DNA of 26,458 nucleotides. It comes from a virus. Shown here one piece after another: positions 3,501 to 19,073 of the stretch; the stretch's first letter is position 1; every line of letters begins with the position of its first letter. The notes under the pieces were generated by a model. The model had not been told where the DNA came from. It saw nothing but the letters and a program-made list of their open reading frames with translations, and ran no database searches. Position numbers and translations under genes: made by a program. The stretch is from IMG/VR virus record IMGVR_UViG_3300008050_004398, positions 1 to 26,458 of that record; one strand, 5' to 3'.

Positions 3501-3558
3501 CATGAATTTGATGGGAGTTTTAAACTAGGGACAGTACAGACCCTAAAGGGGACGATGT

Positions 3559-4380
3559 ATGACAATGGAAAACGGAACGGCGGGTTTTGATACCCCGCCA
3601 CCGGAAGCAACAGTTAACGGAGCTGGCCAGCTTGCTCCCGAACCTAACGCTGTTACAGGGTTAGCGCCCGTATCACCGGAGGGGACGGCGGAACAACAGC
3701 CCAGTTACGAGACTTTGCAGGCGCGGGTAACCGAACTGGAAGCAGAGAATGCCAAGCAGGCCAATGATTACAAGGCCATGCAGGGCAGGATGCGAAGCCA
3801 GCAGGGAGAAGAGTCAAAGATTGAACAGCTCTCTGAAGCAGTGCTTAATACGCAGGAGCTGTTACACGCGTTTATGCGACATCAGGGGACGCAGGACGAA
3901 GAGCAGTTCACGCAAGACCTTCAGAAAGTCGAGACCAATGCGACGAACCGAAGGCAGAACTCCACCTTCCAGCGCACATCCCAGTTGATGATCGACGAGA
4001 TCAGCCAGATAGTAAGAGATGCAGGGCTCTCTTTAGAGTCAGCTCCCGAACTGGAGGAATTCCGCCAGTTATGGGGGCCGGCTTATGACAGTAAGGATAT
4101 CGCAGGGCTATACCAGGCACAGGCATCATTCAACAGGGTGATGCGTGAGCTGGAGAGAACCCGGCGTGAAGAAGCTGAAAGTGGTATTGAAGGGCGTATA
4201 AGGAAGGCTCTTGAGGAGCATGGCGTCAATGCGTTGGATCTGGATTCAACACCATCGGCACCGGCTTCCATGAACGGGAACAACCTTCTTTCACGGCTTG
4301 GCAACTCTGATATGGCGGTCTCACGGGATGAGATAACACAGGCGGCGGAAATGCTTAAAAAGCAGGGAGTCCGCTTTTAG
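3559..4380 (+). CDS. Scaffold-like capsid assembly protein
   Basis: A 273-residue acidic, Gln/Glu-rich protein lies immediately before the major capsid gene, the usual place for a phage scaffolding protein. The first 50 residues are Pro/Ala-rich and probably disordered. Residues about 52-80 (ARVTELEAENAKQANDYKA) form a short coiled coil, and the rest is helical and charged. The ATG at 3559 follows an AAAGGGGA ribosome site at 3545-3552. The C-terminus is short and basic-hydrophobic (MLKKQGVRF), a plausible capsid-binding tail. The assignment rests on position and composition, not on a diagnostic motif. No protease is visible beside it. Confidence 0.7.
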   Translation: MTMENGTAGFDTPPPEATVNGAGQLAPEPNAVTGLAPVSPEGTAEQQPSYETLQARVTELEAENAKQANDYKAMQGRMRSQQGEESKIEQLSEAVLNTQELLHAFMRHQGTQDEEQFTQDLQKVETNATNRRQNSTFQRTSQLMIDEISQIVRDAGLSLESAPELEEFRQLWGPAYDSKDIAGLYQAQASFNRVMRELERTRREEAESGIEGRIRKALEEHGVNALDLDSTPSAPASMNGNNLLSRLGNSDMAVSRDEITQAAEMLKKQGVRF

Positions 4381-4402
4381 TCATATTTAAGGAGTTACCG
4401 GT

Positions 4403-5323
4403 ATGGCAGCAGGTAATACGATTACCGATAGCCTTGCTGACTCTATTCCGACGATGATCGCTTCCGCGAGAATCGTGAGAGAGTTTGCGGGCGTAATGCC
4501 TAATCTCGTCGATAGGCAAAGACTCGACGAAAACACAGGAACAGTCTGGAACGAGGTTTCCATGGCGAAACTTTCCGCACAGGCAGTCACCGAGAGCACT
4601 GAGCTTGATAACCCCCAGCAGATGAGCGACACGCTCTTCTCGATCACCCCGACAGTGATTGGTGTTCACACCATAATCACCGACAGGGTCGCATTGAGGA
4701 TTGCTGCCAACGCTTACGCGCAGACAGGGTCCCTTGCCCAGAACGCTATTGAGCGAAAGAAAGACCAGGACGGCCTCACGGCAATTGACGGGGCGACAAC
4801 ATCTCTTGGCGCCGCGGGCGCGGGGCTTGACACAAGTGACATCAGCTCGGCGGCATACAGGATCACGTCAAATACGACGGAGCCTGCTCCCGCCACGGCA
4901 CCGATTCACGGTGTGTTCCATGGTTTTCAGCTAGCAGACATCGACTTCCAGTTGACGAACCCTGGCATTTCCGTGGTTTCCAGCGGCACTATTGCGGAAG
5001 CACAGGCCGGCGCACCTCTCACGAGCGGCATTGCGGCAGAGGCTTTCCAGAACCGTTACAGGGGCAATATCGCGGGAGCCCGACTCTATGAGGACGGCAA
5101 CCTGACGATTGACAGCTCCGATGATGCGAAGGGCGGCGTATTCAGCCAGATGGCCCTTGTCCTCGTAGAGGGCAGGTCACCATATGTTGAGACGAAGCGG
5201 ATGCCCGAGCTTGGCGGTGGTGCGACTGCGCTATTCCACTATGATGAGTACGCATATGGCGAGAGGTCTTCGGGCAACTGGCTCTATGAGGTCGTCTCGG
5301 ACGCACTCGCCCCGGCTGGATAG
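4403..5323 (+). CDS. Major capsid protein, HK97-fold (N4 gp56-like type)
   Basis: This 306-residue protein has features I associate with a widespread phage major capsid family: an N-terminal stretch beginning TITDSLADSIPTMIASAR, a VDRQRLDENTGTVWNE segment, the DNPQQMSDTLFSITPTVIG block, and AQNAIERKKDQDGLTAIDG near residue 115-130. The C-terminal part is beta-rich and ends with a conserved-looking FHYDEYAYGERSSGNWLYEV segment. It follows the scaffold gene by 22 bp and has a strong AAGGAG site at 4389-4394. It would form the icosahedral shell. HK97 fold is inferred from family memory. The next gene begins 2 bp after its stop. Confidence 0.85.
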   Translation: MAAGNTITDSLADSIPTMIASARIVREFAGVMPNLVDRQRLDENTGTVWNEVSMAKLSAQAVTESTELDNPQQMSDTLFSITPTVIGVHTIITDRVALRIAANAYAQTGSLAQNAIERKKDQDGLTAIDGATTSLGAAGAGLDTSDISSAAYRITSNTTEPAPATAPIHGVFHGFQLADIDFQLTNPGISVVSSGTIAEAQAGAPLTSGIAAEAFQNRYRGNIAGARLYEDGNLTIDSSDDAKGGVFSQMALVLVEGRSPYVETKRMPELGGGATALFHYDEYAYGERSSGNWLYEVVSDALAPAG

Positions 5324-5325
5324 AT

Positions 5326-5535
5326 TTGAACGCCCGCCGCGAGGCATGGGCCGCAAGGCATGGGCCGATACCGAAGGGTTGGATTGTTCATAACATGAAT
5401 GGCAATATGGAGGATAACAGGCTGGAGAACCTGGCCTGTATCCCCCGTAAGACAGAAAACATAAGCCAAGTAGTCGCTCCCTACAGGAAGCGTATAAGGA
5501 AACTGGAGCTACAGCTTCAGAAGGAAAATAGGTAA
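5326..5535 (+). CDS. Tiny HNH-like (His-Me finger) protein, probably catalytically altered
   Basis: A 69-residue protein starts with TTG 2 bp after the capsid stop. Residues 7-35 (WAARHGPIPKGWIVHNMNGN followed by MEDNRLENL) match the core of small phage HNH endonucleases, which usually read GPIPxGxxxHHxNGxxxDNRxENL. The second His of the HH pair, the residue expected to act as general base, is Asn here. The N-terminal half of a typical HNH protein is missing, and the C-terminus (KRIRKLELQLQKENR) is a short charged helix. No ribosome site is evident, so translation is probably coupled to the capsid gene. It could be a decayed homing nuclease or a repurposed DNA-binding fold. The next gene overlaps its stop by 1 bp (TAATG). 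Confidence 0.6.
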   Translation: MNARREAWAARHGPIPKGWIVHNMNGNMEDNRLENLACIPRKTENISQVVAPYRKRIRKLELQLQKENR

Positions 5536-6290
5536 TGGCAGAAGTACATGGCGCAAATGGACGGATAGAGATATTTGAAGATTTTCTAGCAGGTGAGGAC
5601 ATCGTTGCCGCAACGGCAGCGTCCCGCACCTTCGGGAGTTCCGGCCTACGGGTTATCGGGCAGGGAATTGCGGAGACAGACTCCGGGATCACTGTTCTTG
5701 AATCTGACGGCCTCAATGGTGTCGGGGTACTTACCACGACAAACGAAGACGCACATAGCTGTGGTCTCACAACAGGGTTGGTATTTGATGTGGGCAAGAT
5801 GGCTCCCATCGTTGCTGAGTGCAGGGTGCAGTTTGCCGATATGGATACAAAGGCATTCTGGTTCGGCTTTAGTGACGTGAATGGTGACACCTCGATCCTT
5901 GAAGGTGAACAGCTTGTTGCGGCAAGCGGGACTTTAACCCTTTCAGCATCTGACCTGTGCGGGTTCCTGCTTGATGCGGAAGCCACAGATGACGAAGACT
6001 GGATCATGGCCTACAACGGTGGGACAACTACCGGGGAGACCACGATTTCCAACATCGACGCAGATGATGACGCAGTGGCTGGAGAGTTCCAGATATTGCG
6101 TCTTGAAATTGCGAATAACGGGACGGCACGATGGTACGTTGACGGTGTGCTCAAGCAGACCACGACAGGTGCCGTGTCTACAAGCACGGATCTTGCCCTG
6201 GTAACCATGATAGAGGCACGGAGTGCCGCAATTGAGTATGCTTACCTTGACTACATCTATGTCTCGGCTAATCGTGACTGGACTGTCTAG
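5535..6290 (+). CDS. Probable capsid decoration or minor virion protein, beta-sandwich
   Basis: This 251-residue protein directly follows the capsid and HNH-like genes and overlaps the preceding stop by one base. It is Gly/Thr/Asp-rich with alternating beta patterns, for example AFWFGFSDVNGDTSI and LRLEIANNGTARWYVDGVLK. The second pattern, a strand followed by a 'WYVDGV' turn, is typical of concanavalin A-like lectin/glucanase sandwiches. The C-terminal YAYLDYIYVSANRD resembles the last strand of that fold. Position suggests a head decoration protein. Function is inferred from fold-like pattern and location only; no catalytic residues are apparent. Confidence 0.6.
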   Translation: MAEVHGANGRIEIFEDFLAGEDIVAATAASRTFGSSGLRVIGQGIAETDSGITVLESDGLNGVGVLTTTNEDAHSCGLTTGLVFDVGKMAPIVAECRVQFADMDTKAFWFGFSDVNGDTSILEGEQLVAASGTLTLSASDLCGFLLDAEATDDEDWIMAYNGGTTTGETTISNIDADDDAVAGEFQILRLEIANNGTARWYVDGVLKQTTTGAVSTSTDLALVTMIEARSAAIEYAYLDYIYVSANRDWTV

Positions 6291-6298
6291 GAGGGCTG

Positions 6299-6721
6299 GT
6301 GGCAGCACTCGTTGAGCTTGAAACAACTGATATATGGAGTCATGAGCCGTGCTGGTATCTCGGTGAGTTTAACCGGGCGGCTCCTGATTCCCATGGACTT
6401 CGCAGAATACAGGCCATAACGGTGATCCGGCATGACCGCAGGGTAAAGCTGACCCGTGACCTCGGGGACGCACGGCTTTTCGGAGACGAGTTCCAGCTTA
6501 TATGCGGTGTTCCTGACGGCAAGGGCGGTGGTGAGGCTTTATACACGGTAGAAGAGGCACTTGAGATGGCAAGGCAGATGAACACAGCCCCGCCGCCGAG
6601 GCCTGAGTTGAAACCCAGGGACTGGAACAAGGTCTTCTGGGACAACGTGGAAGAAAAGGAAAAATGGAAGCGCGGTGCGAGTGTATTCGGGCCGGAATAT
6701 AAGAAGCAGAGGAATTCATGA
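6299..6721 (+). CDS. Hypothetical virion-operon protein
   Basis: A 140-residue protein with a GTG start at 6299 and a strong AGGAGGG site at 6289-6295. I do not recognise the family. The first 75 residues mix strands with Trp, Cys and Arg (LETTDIWSHEPCWYLGEF; RDLGDARLFGDEFQLICG). A helix with 'YTVEEALEMARQMN' follows, then a Pro-rich linker and a basic tail (EEKEKWKRGASVFGPEYKKQ). Its place between the decoration protein and a zinc-finger protein suggests a small head or connector accessory. The stop overlaps the next start (ATGA). Confidence 0.6.
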   Translation: MAALVELETTDIWSHEPCWYLGEFNRAAPDSHGLRRIQAITVIRHDRRVKLTRDLGDARLFGDEFQLICGVPDGKGGGEALYTVEEALEMARQMNTAPPPRPELKPRDWNKVFWDNVEEKEKWKRGASVFGPEYKKQRNS

Positions 6722-7272
6722 CGACAAATAACCAACCTGCACTTGAAGAAATGATGAGGGATGCGGAAATAGCCGAGGAGCCAGGTAACATGGCACCGGG
6801 AACGGTCATCAGTGCAACCGCTGATATGACCATGAGCGCCGCGGAGCTTCAGTCGGCAGGCTATGTCTATGTCTACGACACAAGGACGGGGGACCGTTCA
6901 GTTGTCAACCGTAATATGCTCCAGCAGCAGTTGGAGAAGCGCCGTGATGACAACTCCTATGCCTTCTCAACGAGGAAACCCGAAGGGGTTGAGCCCATCA
7001 GGGGGGCGCTGAAGTGCTTCCTCCATGATGACGAGCCCGACAGGGAAAAGTACAACAGAATGGGATTTGTCCATTGCACAAAATCCAATTTCCTGACGGA
7101 GATGGACAGGGAAAGGCATCTCAGGACAAGGCACCCGAGGGCATATGCCGCCCTTGAGAATGAGAGGACAAGGGCAGACCGTGACGCCGAGAGGCTTGAG
7201 CGGATAGCCCTCACAGAGACCATCAGGAACATGGCAGGGCCAGAAAACAGAGGTGGCAAGAATGGTAAGTAA
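6718..7272 (+). CDS. Zinc-finger-containing phage protein
   Basis: A 184-residue protein begins at an ATG overlapping the preceding stop. Residues 100-139 carry C100, H103, C120, H134 and H139, with MDRERHLRTRHP ending the unit like a C2H2 finger (His-x4-His). A strongly charged helix (ALENERTRADRDAERLERIA) follows. The N-terminus is acidic and the middle contains a beta stretch (YVYVYDTRTGDRSVVN). Such a finger in a structural operon could stabilise a small fold or bind nucleic acid or another virion protein; which is unknown. The gene overlaps the next one by 11 bp if that starts at 7262. Confidence 0.65.
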   Translation: MTTNNQPALEEMMRDAEIAEEPGNMAPGTVISATADMTMSAAELQSAGYVYVYDTRTGDRSVVNRNMLQQQLEKRRDDNSYAFSTRKPEGVEPIRGALKCFLHDDEPDREKYNRMGFVHCTKSNFLTEMDRERHLRTRHPRAYAALENERTRADRDAERLERIALTETIRNMAGPENRGGKNGK

Positions 7273-7573
7273 CAGTTTTTCACCGTTACCAGGGACATTA
7301 GTACAGCAGGCGGTCACCGACACCGCCAGTGGCATCGGTTCAGGCAATATTCCCAGCGGAAGCAGGTATGCGGAGGGGTTCGTCAGGACTGCCGCCATCG
7401 TGGAAACACGGGACGGCACTACTCCGACAGCCACGAAGGGAACGCAGTGGGATGCGGGTGATTTAATTATCCTGCGAAGCAGGCGTGAGATAGTGAACTT
7501 CAGCGCAGTAGAGCAGACATCCACGGATGCCTCTATTGACTGGCAGTTCTACAACAGGGCTCCGGGTAAGTAG
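7262..7573 (+). CDS. Small virion-associated protein, unknown
   Basis: I choose the ATG at 7262, which has an AGAGG site at 7248-7253 inside the preceding gene; an in-frame GTG at 7253 is an alternative. The 103-residue product is Ser/Thr/Gly-rich with beta patterns (RYAEGFVRTAAIVETRDG; GDLIILRSRREIVNFSAV) and no Cys. I do not recognise it. Size, composition and position suggest a small decoration or fibre-base protein. A fibre-like gene follows after 2 bp. Confidence 0.6.
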   Translation: MVSNSFSPLPGTLVQQAVTDTASGIGSGNIPSGSRYAEGFVRTAAIVETRDGTTPTATKGTQWDAGDLIILRSRREIVNFSAVEQTSTDASIDWQFYNRAPGK

Positions 7574-7575
7574 CT

Positions 7576-8637
7576 ATGGCAGGAGCATATATCCCGCCGG
7601 GCATTGCAGCAGCAGCATCAGGAGACATCACGGCGGTTACCGCGGGAGTCGGCCTTTCCGGAGGCGGGGCTTCTGGTGATGTAACCCTTACCCTTGATCT
7701 CTCGGAACTCAGTGCTGTTACCCCTGCAAACGGGGACAGCCTTGCGACTATAGACTCTGATGGTGCCAACGAGCAGCTCACGACAGTTGCCGCACTTGCA
7801 ACACTGTTTGCAGGTGACGGGCTTGCGGCGTCGAGTTCCGTACTGGGACTTGACCTTGTATCCAACGGCGGCCTTGAGATCTCAAGTAACAAGCTACAGG
7901 TGGCTACAGGAATCTCACAGTACGATGTCGCCCAGTTCGCGGCATCCGTTGCAGATGATGATTTCCTCAGGATAGACGGCACCGCCGTAGAGGGGCGCAG
8001 TGCGGCAGAGGTGTTAAGTGATATCTCGGCTGCTCCTGCGGCAGGGGATAGCAATATTGTCACTACGGGCGCACTAGACTCTGGTTCTATTACTTCTAAC
8101 TTTGGAACTATCAATAATGGCTCTTCAACCATTACTACTACAGGTGCTGCTGACTTAGGTGCTACAACTGTAGATAGTTTGACATCAACAGGTGATGTAA
8201 CCATTGCTGATGGCAAGGGAATTATACTCGACAGCACCCCTGCTGATGATGCATACACTGGCATATATGGCAACTTTGCCAACGCAACTGGGTCCACCAT
8301 TACAAAAGGTCAGGTCGTATACATGACAGGGACAGCGAATCAGGTGGCTCCTGCGAGGGCCAATGCTGCTGGAACTATGCCAGCGGTAGCTATGGCTATT
8401 GCTGATGTTGCAAATGGTGCGACTGGAAATTTCTTAATGTATGGATTTGCCCATGATGCGTCTGCCTTCATTTCATTGACCATAGGTGGAGAGGCATATG
8501 TATCAGATACTGCTGCCGGGGCGTTAGATGCCACCGCTCCAGCAGACGATGGTGAATTTGTACAGATTATTGGAGTGGGTATGCACGGCGACAAGCTGTT
8601 CTTCAATCCCCAACTGCCGATGGTCGAGATTGCCTGA
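7576..8637 (+). CDS. Fibre-like virion protein
   Basis: A 353-residue, Ala/Gly/Ser/Thr-rich protein with almost no Lys or Arg in its first half. Residues 16-45 (GDITAVTAGVGLSGGG and ASGDVTLTLDLSEL) are a motif very common at the base of phage fibres. The middle (TGALDSGSITSNFGTINNGS) has the strand-turn pattern of triple-stranded beta fibres. The C-terminal third (GIYGNFANATGSTITKGQVVYMTG onward) looks like a compact beta domain of the kind seen in capsid-cement or fibre-tip proteins. Codons in about 8065-8560 are clearly more A/T-rich than in the first 480 bp, suggesting recent module exchange. It may be a head fibre or tail fibre; position among head genes slightly favours a head fibre. Confidence 0.65.
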   Translation: MAGAYIPPGIAAAASGDITAVTAGVGLSGGGASGDVTLTLDLSELSAVTPANGDSLATIDSDGANEQLTTVAALATLFAGDGLAASSSVLGLDLVSNGGLEISSNKLQVATGISQYDVAQFAASVADDDFLRIDGTAVEGRSAAEVLSDISAAPAAGDSNIVTTGALDSGSITSNFGTINNGSSTITTTGAADLGATTVDSLTSTGDVTIADGKGIILDSTPADDAYTGIYGNFANATGSTITKGQVVYMTGTANQVAPARANAAGTMPAVAMAIADVANGATGNFLMYGFAHDASAFISLTIGGEAYVSDTAAGALDATAPADDGEFVQIIGVGMHGDKLFFNPQLPMVEIA

Positions 8638-9635
8638 TGGCTGACATCGAGAAGGTGATGTCAGTTGAGGACGCTGACATTGAAAAGTTCATGGGTGTCG
8701 CCAGGGCAGACATTGAGAAAATAATGGGTGTGGAAATGCCCAGTCTTGCAAATGCGTGGCAGGGTGACAGGGGAGTTTTTGGTGGTGGTTACTCAGGAAG
8801 TGCGTATGTAAATGTGATGGACTATATTTCCATCGCAAGCCTCGGCAACTCTTCCGACTTCGGTGACCTCAATAATACGATGTACTACTGCCGTGCTGAG
8901 TCGAGTGGGGCAGGAGGGCGCATCGTGTTCTATGGAGGATATGGTGGCAGTGAGATAGCCCAGATAGACTACATAACCACCGCCTCTACAGGAAACGCAC
9001 AGGATTTCGGAGACACACATGGAGTTGCTGGCTCTGCACACGGAGCGAGTTCTAATGGTACCAGAGGGGTGTTTTCCAGCGGTGTGGGAGGAGCATCAGG
9101 TGGCAGTGCACAGCCGTGGGGATATATCACATTCGCATCAACAGGTGATGCTTCTGCCGGTGGTAACCTGACTGCCGGATCTAACGCAGGGGGTTGTGGC
9201 AATGCCTCAAGAGCCCTGTTTGCCGGTGGGGCGCAGAGTGGAACGCTTCAAAACTGGATAGAGTATTTCAACATAACATCAACTGATAACGGTTCCGACT
9301 TCGGCGACCTCACAGGGGTACGGAAGAGTTTTGACATAGCTACAGATGGTACAACAGCCATTGCAGTTGGTGGAGAGAATGCCTCTGCCACACTGAACAG
9401 TATGGACAATATGACAGTAGCATCAGCGGGCAATGCCACTGATGGGGGCGACCTCTCCTCTATCCGCAACAGGACGGCGACAGTTGAGAACAACGCAAGT
9501 TGTGTCTTCTGGGGAACGACATCCAGCCATGCCAACGGACAACTGGACACCCTTAACATAGCTAACAACAGCACGGCAGACTCATCGTATGACAGGTATG
9601 CTGCTGCTGGTGGGGGAGGAGCGTCAGGGTCGTGA
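8637..9635 (+). CDS. Kelch-like repeat protein with triplicated N-terminal motif
   Basis: A 332-residue protein overlaps the preceding stop by one base (TGATG). Its first 33 residues contain three near-identical 11-12-residue units: ADIEKVMSVED, ADIEKFMGVAR, ADIEKIMGVE. The rest is made of about 50-residue repeats with a core of 'RxVFxGG-xxxxxxxxxxIxYIxIASTGNAxDFGDL', seen at residues about 45-80, 93-125, 138-170, 190-225 and 235-275, consistent with a kelch-like beta-propeller found in many phage tail or appendage proteins. The C-terminus is a Gly-rich tail. The role is probably host or glycan binding on the virion. The repeat count is by eye. Confidence 0.7.
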   Translation: MADIEKVMSVEDADIEKFMGVARADIEKIMGVEMPSLANAWQGDRGVFGGGYSGSAYVNVMDYISIASLGNSSDFGDLNNTMYYCRAESSGAGGRIVFYGGYGGSEIAQIDYITTASTGNAQDFGDTHGVAGSAHGASSNGTRGVFSSGVGGASGGSAQPWGYITFASTGDASAGGNLTAGSNAGGCGNASRALFAGGAQSGTLQNWIEYFNITSTDNGSDFGDLTGVRKSFDIATDGTTAIAVGGENASATLNSMDNMTVASAGNATDGGDLSSIRNRTATVENNASCVFWGTTSSHANGQLDTLNIANNSTADSSYDRYAAAGGGGASGS

Positions 9636-10447
9636 ATGCATTAGTAAAAATAGAACAAAGTTTGTCTGGAATGGCAAAGCATTTCTCAACTATGACTCCT
9701 GCAAAGATTTCCAGGATTTTTGGGGAGAAGATGGTTGCCGTTGAACGTGCGAACAAAACACTTGGCAGGCGTAACACCCAGCATACAAACCAGTTGATGA
9801 CCCTCACTATGCTGACCATGAGTCCTTACCGCCAGATGCGCCAGTGCCTCTCGCAGATTGAGAAGAAAAGACAGGCTATTGAGGAAGCGTATTTTAAAAA
9901 TGCCAAGACAGAAGTGCGTATCAAGGAGTGGTTGGAACAGGACACGGAGATGAGCCGTATCCGCATACAGGAAGCGGAGTTCCAGCGAGAGCGTGGTGCG
10001 ATATACATTGAAGGGGCAATCAAGGAGATTGCAACATTTCAGGACGCAATGGAAGAGATTCGAATATCTCATGGCATACCAGAGGAGTGGACTGAAAGGG
10101 ACGCAGAGGAAGATGAGGTCAAGCACCACATCATGCAGGCGTTTCGACAAAGTCATCGTGACATGATATTGACAGGGCATATTACCCAGGGCAACGCGGA
10201 ATATTTGGAGCAATACGGAATCCATCTTCAAACGGCTGAACGGATAATCGGAGATTACATTCGACAGGTCAGCGAGATGATGGATGAGGGAAAGATGCCA
10301 AGTGTTGAACATCTCTATGAGTTTTTAGACCATATGGCAAAGCAATTTTACTCAGCCCACATCATGGTGATGAACCGAATCGGCCTGAAGACAATCATCA
10401 GGGACGATTACTTATATTTGGAAGAGGCTGGAAATGCCAATCATTAG
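9632..10447 (+). CDS. Conserved helical phage protein, unknown function
   Basis: A 271-residue, mostly helical protein with a GTG start that overlaps the preceding stop. Notable blocks are MTLTMLTMSPYRQMRQCLSQ, IEKKRQAIEEAYFKNAKTEV, IEGAIKEIATFQDAMEEIR and ITQGNAEYLEQYGIHLQTAE. I have a memory of similar proteins in environmental phages, always without a function. The middle is a coiled coil (about residues 85-150). Composition is unlike its beta-rich neighbours. Position between the kelch-like protein and the adaptor suggests an internal, connector or assembly role. The next gene overlaps by 14 bp. Confidence 0.6.
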   Translation: MNALVKIEQSLSGMAKHFSTMTPAKISRIFGEKMVAVERANKTLGRRNTQHTNQLMTLTMLTMSPYRQMRQCLSQIEKKRQAIEEAYFKNAKTEVRIKEWLEQDTEMSRIRIQEAEFQRERGAIYIEGAIKEIATFQDAMEEIRISHGIPEEWTERDAEEDEVKHHIMQAFRQSHRDMILTGHITQGNAEYLEQYGIHLQTAERIIGDYIRQVSEMMDEGKMPSVEHLYEFLDHMAKQFYSAHIMVMNRIGLKTIIRDDYLYLEEAGNANH

Positions 10448-10712
10448 GTACACGCTGGATAATAAAAGAATACCCGGCTATATATCCGATGGTGGTTACT
10501 GGGGTGACGTTGATGACTCGACATTGGTTGGTGTCGGCTCTGGTGGTGGGACAACCCTGTCTCAGGCAGACCTGATAACAAGAGTTCTGAATATTCACGG
10601 TAGATATCCGTTCATAGAATATGACAGCAGCAGCCCTACAGGACGCACAAGGACAACTGACGAAGTGACTGCAATGGTCAATGACTGGTGTACGGCAAAG
10701 GGAGTGAGCTAG
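10434..10712 (+). CDS. Small conserved phage protein, unknown
   Basis: A 92-residue protein starts inside the previous gene. It has an N-terminal strand-turn section (MPIIRYTLDNKRIPGYISDG), a Gly-rich linker (VGVGSGGGTT), then a helical portion with LITRVLNIHGRYPFIEYDS and TTDEVTAMVNDWCTAKGV. I do not recognise a family with known function. The stop is followed directly by the next start. Confidence 0.5.
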   Translation: MPIIRYTLDNKRIPGYISDGGYWGDVDDSTLVGVGSGGGTTLSQADLITRVLNIHGRYPFIEYDSSSPTGRTRTTDEVTAMVNDWCTAKGVS

Positions 10713-10901
10713 ATGGATGAGCAGTCTGCAAAACCAACACAGGAAGATCTCCTGGAGTTGTTCCGCAGGATGCCTATTGCGGAGAAGGAATTGATCATCA
10801 TAACCCAGAGTCGCATAATAAGGGAGCAGCAGGGACGGATAGACTCGCTTGGCAGGATGGCCGCAGGGAAGGCAGAGAAGAAAAAGGAGAAGGTTAGCTG
10901 A
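10713..10901 (+). CDS. Small helical protein, unknown
   Basis: A 62-residue protein starts with ATG directly after the preceding TAG and ends overlapping the ATG of the adaptor gene (TGATG). It is helical with a hydrophobic segment PIAEKELIIITQSRIIREQQ and a strongly basic C-terminus (AAGKAEKKKEKVS). I see no known motif. Tight coupling on both sides supports it being a real gene in the late operon. Confidence 0.5.
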   Translation: MDEQSAKPTQEDLLELFRRMPIAEKELIIITQSRIIREQQGRIDSLGRMAAGKAEKKKEKVS

Positions 10902-12232
10902 TGCCAACTTCAACATGGTCTACCATGAGGCAGGACATACTGCGCCCGTTGGGTCTTGTGACAAGCGCCGCGACCACGACTGCCCTTACAACGAACAAGG
11001 TGGTGGTTGACACAAAGCTCACCGACAGGTTCCCTGTTGATGACTATTTCAATAACCAGTGGTTTGTCCATATAACCTCTGGAAATGATTCGGGTAAGAT
11101 CCGTCGTATTACCGACTATGCCCAGTCAACAGGAACTCTTACCCACCTCGGGGCGAACTGGACTGGTGGTGATTCCCCGTCTTTTGAGCTGACCCCATTT
11201 GATCCCACGGAAGTGCAGAATCTGTACAACGAGGCTCGTGAGATGGTCTACCCCGACATTTCCATGATCAGGGATATCGAGACTATCGTGACAGGAAACA
11301 GGCAGTTCACCTACACCGTTCCAAGCACGATGAGGAAGATAGACCGGGTATACCTTGGCAACAGGCGCAACGCGGATTCCGGTGACAACCTTCTCTTGAA
11401 CGGGGATTTCGAGGAATGGGATGCTGATCAGTTGACTCCCGGCTCCCAGAATAACTGGACCCTTGCAGGGTCTGGTGCCACTTTCAACAAGGAAGCACAG
11501 ACCTCGAATCCGGAGAACTACATGGTTCTTTCAGGGAATAATTCGGGTAGATTTGCCGTGGCCAGCGCCACTACCACGCTGTTGCAGACATTCACACCGG
11601 CGTCCTCGTCGTACACAACGGTGGCGACAGAGGGGCAGGAAGTGAACCTGTCCGCATGGGTGTATTGCAATACGGCAAGCAAGGTCAAACTTTACATCGG
11701 GGCCGCTGTCGGCTCGTTTCACGGCGGAACTGGATGGGAACTGATGAAAGCCAGCGCAACACTTGACCATGATGCGACTACCGCTGTGGTGGGGCTATCC
11801 ATCGCGGCTTCAAATGTGGCTGCGTACATAGACGAGATATGGATGACCATCGGGCAGAGTGAGATGACCGATGTTCCCTACAATGAACTGAGAAACTGGG
11901 AACATGTCCCTCCTGCGGCAGGAGCCTCTGACGGGGGCGTACTCAGGTTCCAGGAATTGTTGCCGGACAAGTACAGGATACGGATAGTCGGAAGGGACAT
12001 ACTCTCTTCCACATCGGCAGAGAGTGACACGGTTGAGGTAGACGGGGACTTACTGCACCCGTTGTATGACAAGGTAAGACAGCTCATAGCATTGAGGATG
12101 GCTGCGGCCAACCCGACATCGACATGGTCGGAGATGGCAAGACAGTATGAGGAAAGTTACATGATGGCAGTCAGGGGTGACCTTATCAGGGTAAAGGCAC
12201 CGCCTGTTGCCGTACCCCGCATGGTGTTCTGA
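10901..12232 (+). CDS. Adaptor/connector-like virion protein with inserted carbohydrate-binding-like domain
   Basis: A 443-residue protein. Residues 1-155 contain MRQDILRPLGLV and EVQNLYNEAREMVYPDISMI, followed by TYTVPSTMRKIDRVYLG. They continue logically in residues about 330-443 (FQELLPDKYRIRIVGRDILS; LLHPLYDKVRQLIALRMAAA), together resembling a phage head-tail adaptor or tail-connector. Between them, residues about 164-318 (NLLLNGDFEEWD ... NWTLAGSGATF ... GQEVNLSAWVYCN ... VAAYIDEIWM) have the signature of a CBM4/9-like jelly-roll: an 'NGDFE' start, central WxL, a 'Y.LSAWVY' strand and a final 'DEIWM' strand. The domain appears inserted into the adaptor fold. It probably sits on the virion surface and binds glycans. 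The start overlaps the preceding stop. Confidence 0.65.
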   Translation: MPTSTWSTMRQDILRPLGLVTSAATTTALTTNKVVVDTKLTDRFPVDDYFNNQWFVHITSGNDSGKIRRITDYAQSTGTLTHLGANWTGGDSPSFELTPFDPTEVQNLYNEAREMVYPDISMIRDIETIVTGNRQFTYTVPSTMRKIDRVYLGNRRNADSGDNLLLNGDFEEWDADQLTPGSQNNWTLAGSGATFNKEAQTSNPENYMVLSGNNSGRFAVASATTTLLQTFTPASSSYTTVATEGQEVNLSAWVYCNTASKVKLYIGAAVGSFHGGTGWELMKASATLDHDATTAVVGLSIAASNVAAYIDEIWMTIGQSEMTDVPYNELRNWEHVPPAAGASDGGVLRFQELLPDKYRIRIVGRDILSSTSAESDTVEVDGDLLHPLYDKVRQLIALRMAAANPTSTWSEMARQYEESYMMAVRGDLIRVKAPPVAVPRMVF

Positions 12233-14892
12233 TGGCACTTGATGTCGAGATCAACGCAAAGGGCTATTCCCTGTTATCTGACAGGGACGGCGCCAAGGTG
12301 GCTACGCGTCCCGTACAGCAGTTTGTGCAGCCGATCCGGCAGACAGGCAGGACAAGGCCTGAAGATGTCGCTCCATACGAGACCTTCATTATCCCGAACC
12401 TGACAAAGGGATTCGGACGTTTCAGGATAGATTCCGACTCCGCTTTCAACCCTGAAGAGTACAGGCGGTTCTTCAATTCCACATGTGACACACGATGGGC
12501 TGACAGCATATACCTCCCCATCCTCGCCGAGTCATCGACCCAGACGGGACTGGAAAGGATCAGGAGAAGTATCCATTTCAAGGGACAGCTTTTCGGGGCA
12601 TGGTCTGATGAATCATCGACCCTGATATCAACCTATCTCTACGATGGGAGTGACCTCACATGGGACACCGCGGGACAGGTGGCTCCCCAGATACGCATCG
12701 ACGCCACTACTGCTACACAAAATGCTTCATACGCATTTAACGAAACACATGTTACGGGAACGGATACGAACAGGCTCATGATTGTTTTACTTTCAACTCT
12801 GAGCAGGGTGCCGACAGGAATAACATATGACGGTGACGCTCTAACCAAGGTGGAAGAAGCCAACAACGGTGATTACTATTCGAGCATATGGTACAGGGTG
12901 GCTCCTGCCACAGGGTCCAACACACTGTCAGTAACATTTGGCGCTGATTCCAGTGCTGATACAAAGTGTGATGCAACAATTATGACACTTTTTGGTGTTG
13001 ACCAGTCATCTCCTGTCGGAACGGACGTGGAGCAGACGGGAAATGACACGGCACCATCTGTGGATGTGACAACTACCGTGGGTGACCTTGTGTTCGATGT
13101 CATATCCGGTGACGGCGACAACGAATCAGGGGGTTATGTGGCAAGTTCGGTGCCTGGTACCGGCCAGACCGAGGTTGCCGACAGGGTGGATCTTAGTTCC
13201 AGAGAGGTCTTCCATACTGTCACACACAAGTATGCAGACCGCACAACCACCACGATGAGTGAGACCCTCACCATCACGGGGGCATCAACGGCGGTATGGA
13301 GCCATGTCGCGGTGGGGGTGAAGGCGGTCTCAACGGCGGGAAGGGTGAATGTCCTCTTCGACATGCACGTCCATGAGGGCAAGGCATTTGCCCTGTACGG
13401 CGAGGCAAGCGACCACTATATATCGATGACTTCAAAGATTGACAATGCCACTGATGACTGGACGGTATCCAATGTCACGACGCCCCTCACCACGGGGCTC
13501 CTGTCAAATGACATCACGGCAAACGAGGACATGGACGGTGGCCTCCTGACAAGCATCGGTGGTGAGCTGGTGGCGGCTCTGTGGCATGAGAGCAACGGGA
13601 CAATAACATTTAGTTCCAGCGGGGACTCCGGGGTCACATGGACAGATGAAAGCATCGATATCGGTTCAGGCAACGGCCCGCAGGGACTTGTTGTATACCC
13701 TGATATAGACGGTGTTGACAAGCTGTATCTCGGGACAGCGGAAGGAATATGGCTCATCGACACGGCGCCATCGACATGGACATTCGATCTGTTGTTTCCC
13801 ATGTCCTACTCGACCGATAACGGCAGGGATATGGAGATACACCAGGGTGCGATATGGTTTGCACAGGGAGTGGGGAATGACTCCCCGGCACCCATATTCC
13901 GCATGACGGTGCAGGGCGACTCAAGGCAGATCGAGTCAGGATACGGATTAAATTTTGGTGACGGGGTGCCGGCAGAGATGCACGGCCCTGTCAGGCGTAT
14001 GAAGTCAAGCGGAGATTTCCTGTATATATCAGTAGGCGGCGGTGCGGCATCAAGGTTTGCCAGGATCTTATGTTGGAACGGTGGCGGATGGCACCATATG
14101 ACCAAGCATACGACCCAGAACCTGCCGATTGAGTGGATTGATGTGGGGTCAGAGGATGATGATGTCTCACGACTGCACTTTGCGGTCAAGACTGCTGCAT
14201 CGACAAGCGCTTCTGCTTTCCTTGGATATGCTGATACCAACCCGAGGTCAGGAGTGGCAATAAAGCGCGAGGCCTATTCTGACGGCAATGCGGGGCATAT
14301 TGTCCTTCCTTACTATGACTTCGGTATTCCTCATGAAGATAAAAATTTCACTTCCATACATGTCATAGCCGATGATTTGAATTCATCTGCCAGTGACGAG
14401 TATATAGACGGTACCTATGGCCATAACGGTGCCGCCGTAACATCTACCACCACGGGTAATTTCCTATCGGGAACAACAAAAATAAACCTCGGCTCTTCTG
14501 CTGGTCAGCAGGCGAAGAACATAGGCATGCGCTTCAATCTCAGGAGGGGGTCTACAAACACCGATACTCCAAAATTGAGAGACATCGTGGTAGAGGGCTA
14601 TGTTGTCCCTAACATTGCCTACGAACACCAGATGACCATTGATATCGAGGAGTCCGCCATTGCCACGGGACAGTCGGTGGAGACGGTTATAGCGAACCTT
14701 GAGACATTGATATCAACGGTCACGCAGGTGACTTTCAAGTTCGGGCAGGTCAGTAAGTATGTGGCGGTTGACCGTGAGCGGAGCAGTTTCTCTTACAGCA
14801 TCAACGCATGGGAGCCATCGGGCGCTTCCAATGCCCTCTCCGAGAGGAAGGGGACATTTAACCTTGTGTTAATAGAAAAGGCAGCCTCATGA
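12232..14892 (+). CDS. Large propeller-like tail protein with inserted beta-sandwich domain
   Basis: An 886-residue protein overlaps the adaptor stop by one base. Residues 26-125 (PVQQFVQPIRQTGRTRPEDV, FIIPNLTKGFGRFRIDSDSA, AFNPEEYRRFFNSTCDTRWA) look like a conserved phage N-terminal region. Residues about 158-363 form a separate Thr/Val-rich beta domain (NRLMIVLLSTL ... VTTTVGDLVFDVISGDG ... STAVWSHVAVGVKAV), a pattern common to many secreted bacterial proteins. From about 365 to 640 the sequence is propeller-like and contains an Asp-box-like SSSGDSGVTW at 461-470. The C-terminal 200 residues are beta-rich and end in a helical segment with QSVETVIANLETLISTVTQV. It is likely a tail tube, nozzle or spike-base component. 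No hydrolase active site is evident. Confidence 0.65.
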   Translation: MALDVEINAKGYSLLSDRDGAKVATRPVQQFVQPIRQTGRTRPEDVAPYETFIIPNLTKGFGRFRIDSDSAFNPEEYRRFFNSTCDTRWADSIYLPILAESSTQTGLERIRRSIHFKGQLFGAWSDESSTLISTYLYDGSDLTWDTAGQVAPQIRIDATTATQNASYAFNETHVTGTDTNRLMIVLLSTLSRVPTGITYDGDALTKVEEANNGDYYSSIWYRVAPATGSNTLSVTFGADSSADTKCDATIMTLFGVDQSSPVGTDVEQTGNDTAPSVDVTTTVGDLVFDVISGDGDNESGGYVASSVPGTGQTEVADRVDLSSREVFHTVTHKYADRTTTTMSETLTITGASTAVWSHVAVGVKAVSTAGRVNVLFDMHVHEGKAFALYGEASDHYISMTSKIDNATDDWTVSNVTTPLTTGLLSNDITANEDMDGGLLTSIGGELVAALWHESNGTITFSSSGDSGVTWTDESIDIGSGNGPQGLVVYPDIDGVDKLYLGTAEGIWLIDTAPSTWTFDLLFPMSYSTDNGRDMEIHQGAIWFAQGVGNDSPAPIFRMTVQGDSRQIESGYGLNFGDGVPAEMHGPVRRMKSSGDFLYISVGGGAASRFARILCWNGGGWHHMTKHTTQNLPIEWIDVGSEDDDVSRLHFAVKTAASTSASAFLGYADTNPRSGVAIKREAYSDGNAGHIVLPYYDFGIPHEDKNFTSIHVIADDLNSSASDEYIDGTYGHNGAAVTSTTTGNFLSGTTKINLGSSAGQQAKNIGMRFNLRRGSTNTDTPKLRDIVVEGYVVPNIAYEHQMTIDIEESAIATGQSVETVIANLETLISTVTQVTFKFGQVSKYVAVDRERSSFSYSINAWEPSGASNALSERKGTFNLVLIEKAAS

Positions 14893-15026
14893 CGGTAAGG
14901 CAAAAGGGAAATAAATGGGTTCTGGTATCATCTAGTGGGAAAACACTCGGTGTGCATCCCAGCAAGAAGGCTGCCCAGAGGCAGGAAAGAGCCGTAAAGG
15001 CAAGTCAGGCAAGGAGTAACAGGTAA
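14889..15026 (+). CDS. 45-residue basic phage protein
   Basis: A short gene starts at the ATG overlapping the stop of the tail protein (ATGA) and ends overlapping the next ATG (TAATG). The product runs MTVRQKGNKWVLVSSSGKTL and then GVHPSKKAAQRQERAVKASQ. This 'K.WVL.S..GK.LG.H.SKKAA..QERA..AS' pattern recalls a family of 40-60-residue phage proteins with no assigned function. It is strongly basic with no Cys. Overlaps on both sides make it convincing despite its size. Confidence 0.7.
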   Translation: MTVRQKGNKWVLVSSSGKTLGVHPSKKAAQRQERAVKASQARSNR

Positions 15027-15349
15027 TGGTTATGCCGGAAGGTGAGATACCCCTGCACCAGTTGTTGCCGGAAGAGAAGCAGGACGCCCTTGTGCGTCTT
15101 GACGGGATACTCGACGAGATGCTTGTGCGTCATGATTATCCCGAGGATGTCATCGAGGTCATCAGCGGGCGGATGAAGGCATGGATGAAGAAATGGGAGA
15201 TGAAGGGAGTTCACAGGAACCGCACCTTCGCTGAGTTCCATGACAACCAGATCCCCGGCTTTCTGAAGGAAGCATGGAATATATCCCGGCAGGTCGCTGC
15301 GCGGTCAAGGGATATAGACGGATCTGATATCCTTCCGCCGGGTAGATGA
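15026..15349 (+). CDS. Small helical protein, unknown
   Basis: A 107-residue protein with an AAGGAG site at about 15010-15016 and ATG overlapping the preceding stop. It is helical and rich in Glu, Lys, Met and Trp (ILDEMLVRHDYPEDVIEVIS; RMKAWMKKWEMKG) and ends DILPPGR. No recognised family or motif. It precedes a small membrane protein, so an accessory role in lysis or virion assembly is possible but unsupported. Confidence 0.5.
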   Translation: MVMPEGEIPLHQLLPEEKQDALVRLDGILDEMLVRHDYPEDVIEVISGRMKAWMKKWEMKGVHRNRTFAEFHDNQIPGFLKEAWNISRQVAARSRDIDGSDILPPGR

Positions 15350-15357
15350 TAGCGTGA

Positions 15358-15558
15358 ATGGCAAAGGAAGAAGAGACCAGGCGTATATTAAACTTCATAG
15401 ATGATGTTAGAAGACTACATATACCAAGGATACAGAATATGGAAAAGAGCCTGATAAGAACAAGACGTGCTGCTTATGCAGGGTTGGGAATGGGAGCTTT
15501 GGGAATAGCCCTCGGTGCTTTCGCGATGTACATCATTTATGAGCGTGGCTGGTGGTGA
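15358..15558 (+). CDS. Small single-span membrane protein
   Basis: A 66-residue protein: a charged helical N-terminal region (AKEEETRRILNFIDDVRRLH), a basic flank (KSLIRTRRAA), one transmembrane segment at about residues 39-60 (AAYAGLGMGALGIALGAFAM), and a short aromatic end (YERGWW). Basic residues before the segment predict the N-terminus in the cytoplasm. Neighbouring membrane genes suggest an inner-membrane or virion-associated role; a holin or spanin-like role is possible but not shown. Confidence 0.55.
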   Translation: MAKEEETRRILNFIDDVRRLHIPRIQNMEKSLIRTRRAAYAGLGMGALGIALGAFAMYIIYERGWW

Positions 15559-15564
15559 TAACAG

Positions 15565-16890
15565 ATGATAAGGATTAAGGTTCCCAGGGTAAAAGTTCCC
15601 AGAGTCAGGCTGCATATAAACCTTCCCATCATGTCCTTCTTTAACGTGATATTAAAGGTCGTCCTTGCCAGCCTTACCGTGGTTCTTGTTGTTACGGGAG
15701 CACTCGGGCTGGTGATTTCCTACGTGGACCCCACTCGATGGGTTTCCCCTATCCTGCCAATTCAGGTTGAAAACTTTTTCTGGACAGGACGGTGGCTGAA
15801 TATCAACGAGCCCCTTATGTCCAAGGTTATCTATTACTTTAACTACAACATGCTTCAGACTATTGGGATCTCTTCCGGGCTTATCCTACTAGGACTCTTA
15901 CTGCACATCCGTAAGTTCAAACTCTACTGGCGCAAGATACGGGCAGCTCCGATGGGAGTGATACATGCTCCTGTCAGGGCATATAAACGGATAATCATCT
16001 GGCGCAACTGGGTCATAGCCAAGATTGAATATGTTAATTCCGAATCAGCTAAGTGGCGCACGGCATTTACTATAGTCAAGTCTCCTTATTCCTTCTTGAG
16101 AATTATGGGACTGAATCAACAGACTGCATTAGCAATACTCGCTCTGGGTAGTACTGCTGGTACAGGAGTGGTGGTCAATGAAACTATACTCGCCGAAAAA
16201 AGTTTTAAGAATGGAGACAGTGGAATTTATTCTGCTCCCCTTGATGCGCCCACTTTTTATAGTGATACTGAGAATACCCTACGCATAGATTTGGGTAGTA
16301 CCCCAGTTAGGGAGATTACGATTGAGAATGTCTCAGTCGGAACGGCGTTCACTGGTAGTGCACTGCCTTCTGGAAAGACAACTGTAGTTGAAGTGACTGG
16401 CGTAACTGCGTTGGCTTCAAGTACACGGCTGGAAGTGGGCACCTTAATCTTTGAGAAGTCTAGATGTAAGACACTAACACTTAGCCAGATAAACGCACAC
16501 ACACTGATTGTCAACGGTAATGCCAGTGACGGTCAAAGCATTGCCCCTTCTCCCGGCTCTGCCCGTATGAGAGCCATAGGTGGTGGTCATCATCAAGCCG
16601 AAGCGATGGTCACATCAGGTGGTACCTACGACCGGATCTGGATACAGGCTCCAACGAGTGGTGTTAACGGAAAGGTCGGAACACTTAAGCTTTCTAATCT
16701 TTTCACAAAAGGAGGGGACTGCTTACTGTCACACATGGACATAGGCACACTTCGGGTTGAGCTTAACGAAATAGGGAATGGCAATGGATTTTCTACAAAG
16801 GAGTTTGTGATAGCCACCTCTACGCAAGCTGCCAATATGACAATAGCAGATAACGTGGAAGTCAGCATTGCTGAACCAGAAACGCAGTAA
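15565..16890 (+). CDS. Membrane protein fused to a beta-rich C-terminal domain
   Basis: A 441-residue protein. The N-terminus is very basic (IRIKVPRVKVPRVRLHIN). Transmembrane-like segments lie at about residues 25-52 (VILKVVLASLTVVLVVTGAL), 96-114 (LQTIGISSGLILLGLLLHI) and possibly 185-202 (TALAILALGSTAGTGVVV). From about 205 onward the protein switches to a beta-rich, Ser/Thr/Gly-rich domain (TLRIDLGSTPVREITIENVS; ANMTIADNVEVSIAEPE) that looks like a beta-helix or fibre. DNA from about 16,060 is noticeably more A/T-rich than the preceding part. This is either an unusual virion-membrane protein or a host-surface factor. I cannot name a family with known function. Confidence 0.55.
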   Translation: MIRIKVPRVKVPRVRLHINLPIMSFFNVILKVVLASLTVVLVVTGALGLVISYVDPTRWVSPILPIQVENFFWTGRWLNINEPLMSKVIYYFNYNMLQTIGISSGLILLGLLLHIRKFKLYWRKIRAAPMGVIHAPVRAYKRIIIWRNWVIAKIEYVNSESAKWRTAFTIVKSPYSFLRIMGLNQQTALAILALGSTAGTGVVVNETILAEKSFKNGDSGIYSAPLDAPTFYSDTENTLRIDLGSTPVREITIENVSVGTAFTGSALPSGKTTVVEVTGVTALASSTRLEVGTLIFEKSRCKTLTLSQINAHTLIVNGNASDGQSIAPSPGSARMRAIGGGHHQAEAMVTSGGTYDRIWIQAPTSGVNGKVGTLKLSNLFTKGGDCLLSHMDIGTLRVELNEIGNGNGFSTKEFVIATSTQAANMTIADNVEVSIAEPETQ

Positions 16891-17413: not shown

Positions 17414-17565
17414 CTATGTGATGGGTTGGTTCGTCTTTTTATCTTTAGGTTTTCTTGGCGCTTTTATCAGTCCACGATCCAGTGTTCGGATAAGACGGAT
17501 CAATTCGGATGCCGTTCCATCACATGTAGGGACTGAACACTCTCGAATATGTCAAATTTACTCAT
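17414..17565 (-). pseudogene. Possible small frameshifted gene downstream of the methyltransferase
   Basis: On the minus strand an ATG at 17565 overlaps the methyltransferase C-terminal stop and reads MSKFDIFESVQSLHVMERHP before a stop at 17500-17502. A different frame then continues as protein-like sequence, SELIRLIRTLDRGLIKAPRK, to TAG at 17414-17416. A single-base shift near 17,505 would join the two parts into about 50 residues. This may be a decayed small gene, or the apparent shift may be a sequence error. Evidence is compositional only. Confidence 0.35.
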
Positions 17566-17672
17566 ATAACAGCTCTTCTATTTTCAGTTCTCTCGCAAGA
17601 GTTCGAAAAGCGAGTGCTGCCACTGCCGGTACAACCCCATTTCCAACGGCTCGGAGACGGAGGTCCACCCCG
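17558..17672 (-). pseudogene. C-terminal motif X fragment of the cytosine-5 methyltransferase
   Basis: In the same reading phase as the N-terminal methyltransferase part, the minus strand encodes LRLRAVGNGVVPAVAALAFR, followed by TLARELKIEELLYE and TAA. The GN-x-V-x-P-x-V-A pattern is motif X of C5-methyltransferases, which packs against the AdoMet site. It is separated from motifs I-VIII by about 670 bp read in another frame. An upstream ATG exists at 17938 in this phase, but the intervening sequence is not methyltransferase-like. Either two compensating frameshifts have broken one gene, or the end is reached by recoding. Confidence 0.6.
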
Positions 17673-18867
17673 GCGGAAGGCCCATCAAGTGTTCTGCAAA
17701 AAGTGGGTTGAGCCTCCGGCACGATGGAGAGCAACTGTGACCATCCTTCCCTGTCTCCTGGCCCTGGTGGATAGAGGGGATATCTGGATTCGTTGAATTG
17801 CCGTCGCTCTTCCGTGACTTCCCCATCTTCTCCCTCTCTGGATAGCCCACCAACGCCGGATGATTGCTGAGAGCTACTTGGCCATAGTTCGGTCTGTTCC
17901 CTATCTTGTCGGCTTCTGCTACTGTCGGTGTCGGCCATAATGATGCCTCCGTTTCCAGTCTCCGTTTCGGATTGTTGTCTTCCAGTTCTGTTTCTGAGGG
18001 ACCATTCGCCGAGGATACTCGTGGCGTGAGCCAGTTCTCAGGGTGCATCTCTGAATGAACGAACTCTCTCAGATTATCTGGATGTTTTCGCCCTGCTCTT
18101 TGTCCCGTTGTAAACCGTTCCTTGTTTGCCGCTTCTGATCTCGGTGGTAGTTCATCCATTGTGTTTGGCGTGGGCCAGTTTTCAACTGCACCGTATATCG
18201 ATTCAGAACCCCTCTTAGAATTTGCATTTGAAGGGTTCCCGGCGGTCATGGTGGGCCAGTTAGCTGCCTGATCTCTTAATTTAATCTGAGGTGTATTGAT
18301 ATTCTGGAATCTTTGCGTTGACCAGTCTTCTATTCCCCCTTCAGGGTCTGACGCAGCTCGAGTGGGCCAGGATAAAGAGTCGTTGCCTCTTGTGAGGGGC
18401 CCCAGTCTCGGACGCTGTGAAGAGTCCTTCCGCAACCTCGTAACCCATCTCTCGTAGTTCGGGTCGTATGGTGTCGTAGTAGTATCTGAGGATTCCGGGC
18501 ACATTTTCAAGAAAGACGATTGGAACCCCAAGCCCCCTAATAAGTCTGGCTGTGTCGGGCCAGAGGTTTCTTGGATCATCTTCTCCAAGCTGCGCCCCGG
18601 CGAAGCTGAAGGGCTGGCAAGGGAACCCTCCAGTGAGCATATCCACTTTTCCACGCCACGGTTCAGTGTCGAAGGTTTTAATAGAAGACCAGATAGGCGC
18701 CTCATGGAGAGCCTTTTCTTCCATACGTTTTGCCAGGATTTCTGCTGCTGAAAGTTCGATTTCCACATAACAGACGACTCTAGTTGGGACAACTGCTCGG
18801 AGTCCAAGCTCAATTCCTCCGTACCCGGAACAGATGGAAATGGTATTGAGGGAACGTGTATCCACAT
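17584..18867 (-). CDS. Long alternate frame with Trp-Pro-Thr-Pro repeats (variable region of the methyltransferase)
   Basis: An unbroken 427-codon frame starts with ATG two bases upstream of the methyltransferase GTG and shares its ribosome site. Its first ~155 codons overlap motifs I-VIII out of phase and do not look like a protein. From about 18,390 downward it becomes protein-like, with repeats SWPTRAAS, NWPTMTAG, NWPTPNTMD, NWLTPRVSS and LWPTPTVAE, then LNPLFAEHLMGLPPGWTSVS near the end. Proteins with repeated 'WPTP' units ending 'LNP-x-x-E-LMG-P-GW' occur in phages beside or fused to C5-methyltransferases, in the region between motifs VIII and X where the target-recognition domain normally lies. 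It is therefore probably the displaced middle of the same enzyme, or a separate protein. Confidence 0.5.
   Translation of the reverse strand: MWIHVPSIPFPSVPGTEELSLDSEQLSQLESSVMWKSNFQQQKSWQNVWKKRLSMRRLSGLLLKPSTLNRGVEKWICSLEGSLASPSASPGRSLEKMIQETSGPTQPDLLGGLGFQSSFLKMCPESSDTTTTPYDPNYERWVTRLRKDSSQRPRLGPLTRGNDSLSWPTRAASDPEGGIEDWSTQRFQNINTPQIKLRDQAANWPTMTAGNPSNANSKRGSESIYGAVENWPTPNTMDELPPRSEAANKERFTTGQRAGRKHPDNLREFVHSEMHPENWLTPRVSSANGPSETELEDNNPKRRLETEASLWPTPTVAEADKIGNRPNYGQVALSNHPALVGYPEREKMGKSRKSDGNSTNPDIPSIHQGQETGKDGHSCSPSCRRLNPLFAEHLMGLPPGWTSVSEPLEMGLYRQWQHSLFELLREN
18341..18865 (-). CDS. DNA cytosine-5 methyltransferase, N-terminal catalytic part
   Basis: A 174-residue frame starts at GTG 18865, with an AAAGGAGG site seven bases upstream. 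A longer open frame to 19045 would run through the neighbouring gene and is rejected. Visible C5-methyltransferase motifs: I, SICSGYGGIELGL (residues 10-22, AdoMet binding); IV, GGFPCQPFS (79-87) with catalytic Cys83; VI, ENVPG (120-124); VIII, RQRLFIL (160-166). The frame stops at TGA 18341-18343, before any target-recognition domain and without motif X. Those parts are found downstream in another frame and then again in this phase. An intact version would methylate cytosine to protect phage DNA from host restriction. As read here, activity would need frameshift repair, recoding or subunit complementation. Confidence 0.8.
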   Translation of the reverse strand: MDTRSLNTISICSGYGGIELGLRAVVPTRVVCYVEIELSAAEILAKRMEEKALHEAPIWSSIKTFDTEPWRGKVDMLTGGFPCQPFSFAGAQLGEDDPRNLWPDTARLIRGLGVPIVFLENVPGILRYYYDTIRPELREMGYEVAEGLFTASETGAPHKRQRLFILAHSSCVRP

Positions 18868-18878
18868 TGACCCCTCCT

Positions 18879-19073
18879 TTATATTGTTCTTTTCTTGCCG
18901 ATGAAAAAATTGCGTACCTTCCGCTTCTGCCCTTTGCGTATCTCACGCCACTGGGTTTTCGGGACAATGATGTTGTAGTGTTCCTTCTCTGCCCCACAGT
19001 GCTTGCATATGCCGACACTCGTCTTCCCGCTGGTGGGCGCTTCAAGCATATAGTGGTGGATACAGTTACTCAT
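18879..19073 (-). CDS. Small zinc-ribbon-like protein
   Basis: A 64-residue protein starts with ATG overlapping the stop of the RusA-like gene (ATGA). CIHHYMLEAPTSGKTSVGIC and then KHCGAEKEH place Cys4, His6, His7, Cys23 and Cys26 as a compact metal site. The rest is basic (REIRKGQKRKVRNFFIGKKR). The 'C-HH-x(n)-G-x-C-x-x-CG' pattern recurs in small phage and actinobacterial proteins, to my memory without known function. It precedes the methyltransferase by 13 bp. The basic tail fits nucleic-acid binding. Confidence 0.65.
   Translation of the reverse strand: MSNCIHHYMLEAPTSGKTSVGICKHCGAEKEHYNIIVPKTQWREIRKGQKRKVRNFFIGKKRTI

Follow-up and report, generated by a model that had tools for sequence, protein, structure and literature searches.

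A phage C5-cytosine DNA methyltransferase probably built of separate chains encoded in two overlapping reading frames

The methyltransferase locus lies on the minus strand of the window, by which we mean the whole 26,458-nucleotide stretch of viral DNA that was analyzed (IMGVR_UViG_3300008050_004398), and it is open in two reading frames (Table 1). The first part of frame A, from a GTG at 18865 to the TGA at 18343-18341, contains C5-methyltransferase motifs I, IV (GGFPCQPFS), VI (ENV), and VIII (QRLFILA). Nine stops interrupt the frame between its two parts (18343 to 18040), after which it is open again from 18037 to its end at 17558, a stretch that holds motif X. Frame B, the +1 frame, is without stops across the whole locus (18942-17587), and its ATG at 18867 overlaps the frame A GTG; the WPTP region and LNPLFAEHLMGLPPGW sit in this frame. 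We refer to the two frame A parts as alpha1 and alpha2 and to the frame B product as beta. An earlier note on this DNA had placed motifs I, IV, VI, and VIII in frame A, WPTP in frame B, and motif X in frame A again, and this A-B-A pattern, together with its coordinates and frames, was right. However, the note had confined frame B to the middle region, whereas the frame is open over the whole locus, and the two single-base indels by which it related the frames do not fully describe a relation that includes nine frame A stops.

Table 1. Coordinates of features at the methyltransferase locus (positions in the window)
Feature	Position	Strand	Description
alpha1	18341..18865	-	174 aa, GTG start; C5-methyltransferase motifs I, IV, VI, VIII
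alpha2	17558..17938	-	126 aa, ATG start; YPPGP segment and motif X
beta	17584..18867	-	427 aa, ATG start; WPTP cassettes and motif IX-like LNPLFAEHLMGLPPGW
Shine-Dalgarno-like AAAGGAGGGG	18871..18880	-	precedes overlapping ATG (18867) and GTG (18865); equivalents in relatives
ATGTG overlapping starts	18863..18867	-	ATG for beta, GTG for alpha1
GGAGG	17946..17950	-	7 nt ahead of alpha2 ATG
Nine-stop stretch of frame A	18038..18343	-	probable lost alpha linker; read in frame B only
Six W-x-T-x cassettes in a row and linker, in beta	17713..18369	-	putative target-recognition region
Motif IX-like LNPLFAEHLMGLPPGW in beta	17665..17712	-	conserved in alignment
Motif X RAVGNGVVPAVA in alpha2	17618..17653	-	overlaps end of beta

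Alpha1 matched the Pfam DNA_methylase model PF00145 (118 bits, E=7e-34) as well as M.HhaI and M.HaeIII in the PDB, and phrog_363 matched both frame A parts, alpha1 (E=1e-44) and alpha2. Between them, alpha1 (I, IV with its PCQ, VI with its ENV, and VIII) and alpha2 (X) complete the C5-methyltransferase motif set in the window. The best PHROG match of beta was phrog_1008 (E=3e-14), which was also matched by 38 of 38 beta relatives; searches of Pfam and NCBIfam with beta found no model, and a profile search of the PDB returned a chance match only. PHROG labels both phrog_363 and phrog_1008 "DNA methyltransferase" and keeps them as separate families with no statement of an overlap or a joint enzyme.

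Since a DNA-level search of phages with the locus found nothing, relatives were sought at the protein level. A protein search of viral contigs yielded 80 loci, which together with the window and three phage records gave 84 loci for classification. Frame A is unbroken from motif I to motif X in 61 of these (continuous alpha), and in this class frame B is also open in nearly every locus, while stops abound in the third frame. Eight loci, namely the window and L012-L018 (six of them distinct), have a frame A that is broken only in its middle; in another eight motif X has moved into frame B, and the remaining seven are without clear class. The same phase relation between alpha and beta was found in phages C75C1 and Mae-JY24 and P. 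larvae phage Rani, and in bacterial contigs of Verrucomicrobia, Chloroflexi, Planctomycetota, and others. These comparisons point to a shared plan of two overlapping genes, alpha (motifs I-VIII and X) and beta (cassettes and motif IX), kept over many phage lineages and several bacterial phyla, from which the window's group departs by loss of the alpha linker.

The five distinct A-B-A relatives of the window (L012, L013, L015, L017, and L018) come from separate IMG metagenomes, carry 8-19 mid-gene frame A stops, and share 76-83% alpha1 identity with the window, the mean alpha1 identity within the group being 83%; these loci are kin and hence not independent samples. The stops are limited to the linker in all six loci, and both their positions and the linker lengths vary. 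Since the same layout was recovered from separate metagenomes, it reflects neither chance nor sequencing error. In a tree of alpha1, A-B-A rows were intermixed with continuous-alpha rows, so the alpha split may have had more than one origin or may have been reversed through exchange of the middle, the 168 residues compared being too few to decide between these. A single-protein search with the C-terminal frame A piece found no relatives; the six-sequence alpha2 alignment did find relatives when used as the query, with no further A-B-A loci among them.

In the loci with motif X in beta (L045, L049, L054, L055, L058, L059, L068, and L071), alpha ends after motif VIII, and motifs IX and X share the beta frame. 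Two further arrangements were observed: in L148 (1700-3300), alpha and beta both shift frame at once past EQGGGQQR, apparently through a single indel that is either real or a sequencing error, and L149 (1600-3200) has motifs I-VIII, IX, and X all in one frame and a WPTP-like region in the other. The records of phages C75C1 (L003, 2474-3916) and Mae-JY24 (L002, 2293-3486) annotate only one of the two frames, that of alpha, leaving the overlapping beta frame unannotated.

Evidence that frame B is itself a gene came from several comparisons. When alpha1 was subjected to synonymous shuffling in 19 lineages (<70% identity), 53.6 frame B stops were expected over alpha1 and 6 were seen; in the same test frame C had 161 stops compared with 148 expected. 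For the window by itself, the openness of frame B was not significant (P=0.18). The beta start codon followed by M-W-(I/V/L)-x-x-P or a close variant was present in 72 of 75 distinct loci, and the overlapping starts read ATGTG in 51 and NTGTG in 58 of the 75. Fourfold-site divergence was 0.26 in alpha1 compared with 0.61 in the neighboring ATPase gene, 0.58 in the RusA gene, and 0.59 in the beta-only middle, a comparison that presumes like histories of neighboring genes, which phage mosaicism may break, and in which the beta-only middle consists of shuffled cassettes. The half of beta over alpha1, taken alone, matched phrog_1008 at E<1e-5 in 7 of 10 members tested; the window's own half gave no such match. 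AlphaFold2 modeled beta with low confidence (mean pLDDT 49), and the result was too poor for a fold search. Taken together, these data indicate that beta is a separate, full-length overlapping gene with its own start, present alongside intact alpha chains.

Alpha2 likewise has the features of a gene. The reopened frame starts with ATG-GCN-GAC or a near variant (MADT/MGDT) in all six distinct A-B-A loci, and its ATG is preceded by a 5-6 nt Shine-Dalgarno match in 6/6, a conservation that partly follows from the beta Glu codons before Trp. Among the other cassettes of these genes, 3 of 29 have an ATG with such a match, compared with 0 of 18 in motif X-in-beta loci and 0 of 60 in continuous loci (0/78 for the latter two together). 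The six-member alpha2 alignment has 40 invariant columns and no stops. Substitutions in the segment shared by alpha2 and beta were 0.23, 0.07, and 0.26 at positions A1, A2, and A3, respectively. Since A3, which is beta's second codon position, has the highest value, although a low one would be expected if beta alone were constrained, the pattern indicates that alpha2 is under constraint in frame A as well as in frame B.

The structure of an intact alpha bears on what the window's group has lost. In the AlphaFold2 model of the L019 alpha, residues 1-176 and the motif X helix were confident, and the fold matched that of M.HaeIII and other C5-methyltransferases. Since residues 177-286 had pLDDT <50 almost throughout, the stretch lost from alpha is probably a linker. 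In the window's group the first stops fall at codons 172-175, where this apparently unstructured linker starts. Fragment complementation is known for ordinary C5-methyltransferases (PMC3404938), so non-covalent assembly of a cut alpha is plausible. Alpha1 ends at most about ten residues past motif VIII, and the alpha2 of L015 has just nine residues ahead of YPPGP. Since this leaves no room for a target-recognition domain in alpha1 or alpha2, the target-recognition region must, on this sequence-based reasoning, lie in beta, whose model is too weak to show it structurally.

Cassettes that begin with W-x-T-P or similar are lined up in the middle of beta, and their order and number differ among relatives. 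Comparison of positions 17713-18369 of the window with the same region of L012, L013, L015, L017, L018, L019, and L023 identified near-identical cassettes: u3 of the window and u2 of L013; u4 of the window, u2 of L012, u1 of L017, and u2 of L018; u6 of the window and u5 of L017; and u1 of L012, u3 of L017, and u4 of L015. Automatic clustering put most cassettes in one family, and it is on these near-identical cassettes that the claim of shuffling rests. The differences in order look like recombination of target modules, and the shuffled cassettes would perhaps give several specificities.

We consider it likely that the locus encodes a phage C5-cytosine DNA methyltransferase built of separate chains, alpha1, alpha2, and beta, from two overlapping frames. 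The frames, their conservation, their starts, and their recurrence, as observed in the sequences, suggest the following scheme. Ribosomes would start at the overlapping ATGTG, with the ATG giving beta, the putative target reader with its WPTP cassettes and motif IX, and the GTG giving alpha1, which would supply the AdoMet-binding and catalytic motifs I-VIII. The internal Shine-Dalgarno sequence and ATG would give alpha2, whose motif X would complete the AdoMet-binding domain. The three chains would then assemble into one active enzyme that would methylate phage DNA, probably against host restriction. Alpha1 and alpha2 are a single chain in most relatives, the linker between them having been lost in the window. 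More tentatively, at somewhat less than even odds in our judgment, this is a natural C5-methyltransferase of three polypeptides, encoded from three starts in two overlapping frames that occupy ~1.3 kb, in which the cut in alpha relieved beta's target-recognition cassettes of coding in a second frame and so allowed them to be swapped and shuffled; with several cassettes, such an enzyme may be multispecific.

The main rival to separate chains is that alpha is decaying, the stops marking a loss of function and the motif X part being a remnant kept only through the constraint on beta. While the nine frame A stops, and the variation between relatives in stop positions and linker lengths, would be consistent with decay, the stops sit only in the linker in 6/6 loci, and alpha1 retains its high mean identity within the group (83%) and low fourfold-site divergence. 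Alpha2, moreover, has its 40 invariant columns, a ribosome-binding site, no stops, and a substitution pattern unlike that of constraint on beta alone, and we regard decay as unlikely. It is less probable still that the working enzyme consists of alpha1 and beta only, with alpha2 dispensable. The presence of motif X in beta in L045, L049, L054, and L068 suggests that the number of chains is flexible, but the window has motif X solely in alpha2, whose ribosome-binding site is conserved, and the AdoMet-binding domain of known C5-methyltransferases includes motif X as a conserved element.

The three parts follow one another in the motif order of an ordinary C5-methyltransferase, and frameshifting is used elsewhere by phages, as would suit recoding into one chain by two shifts, +1 once motif VIII has been read and -1 ahead of motif X. 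However, a scan for -1 type slippery heptamers found none in the window, at the junctions or elsewhere, and none common to the six loci. Beta is open, with its own conserved start, ahead of the whole alpha1 region, neither of which recoding needs, and alpha2 also has its own start, making this reading very improbable. Sequencing or assembly indels that broke one ordinary open frame have to be considered because the record is an environmental virus contig that was taken without reads, but we give this explanation almost no weight: the frame pattern is the same in six distinct loci from separate metagenomes, there are nine stops rather than two shifts, and the seeming single indel of L148 shifts alpha and beta together, unlike the pattern in the window. 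The earlier note had listed a broken gene, assembly errors, recoding, and a split into interacting subunits as options. The first is at odds with related loci that keep the same layout and a conserved alpha2 start, the second with recurrence in independent assemblies, and the third with the lack of a conserved slippery site among the -1 type heptamers scanned. The fourth accords with the separate overlapping chains seen in sequence, although the note itself had also proposed two opposite one-base shifts that would make one enzyme, a proposal that is not supported since the middle belongs to a separate full-length beta present beside an intact alpha. Its argument that both frame A parts derive from a single ancestral chain is borne out by sister loci that keep alpha continuous from motif I to X.

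Among known systems, the best explanation appears to be that this three-chain overprinted C5-methyltransferase is a variant of the M.EcoHK31I plan, new in its cut alpha. Lee et al. reportedly found in 1995 that the M.EcoHK31I beta gene lies inside alpha, in another frame. M.EcoHK31I is a two-subunit C5-methyltransferase (YGGCCR) with motif IX on a chain apart from motifs I-VIII and X (PMC3404938). The window resembles this closest system in having motifs I-VIII and X in the alpha lineage and motif IX on another polypeptide, encoded in another frame that overlaps alpha. It differs in that alpha is cut in two by the nine stops, with an extra internal start, whereas sister loci have the single alpha chain with motifs I-VIII and X that defines this kind of enzyme, and in that beta, whose start overlaps that of alpha1 at the head of the gene, extends over the entire locus. 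Moreover, the predicted target-recognition domain of M.EcoHK31I was placed in the larger subunit (PMC3404938), in contrast with the window, where it must apparently be in beta; the split form would thus be a natural experiment in placing this region. M.AquI, a two-subunit enzyme (CYCGRG), has an alpha that ends after motif VIII and motif IX on a second polypeptide (PMC3404938), as do alpha1 and beta of the window. However, M.AquI keeps motif X together with IX in its second subunit, as is seen in L045, L049, L054, and L068, whereas in the window X belongs to a third ORF, which shares the frame of alpha. In P. larvae phage Rani, an overlapping alpha and internal beta (gp50 and gp51, the latter noted "g50 Internal gene") are both annotated; the Rani alpha is continuous, and its beta is annotated from an internal rather than an overlapping start. 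A search of the literature, short of most subscription journals, found no description of the layout in the window.

To our knowledge, there are few documented cases of overlapping genes that encode obligate partners of a single enzyme. Natural split forms also have practical interest, because split C5-methyltransferases, including M.EcoHK31I, have been used to methylate DNA at chosen targets (PMC3439449).

Elsewhere in the window, five long plus-strand ORFs (3-16890), which judging by their position and size are presumably virion genes, have no PHROG match at E 0.001, suggesting that this phage is far from described ones. Two genes of the same orientation sit directly upstream of the methyltransferase, a RusA-like resolvase gene (19444-19070) and a short ORF with CxxC residues (19073-18879), the latter stopping just ahead of the methyltransferase Shine-Dalgarno sequence, and these two genes may be co-transcribed with the methyltransferase.
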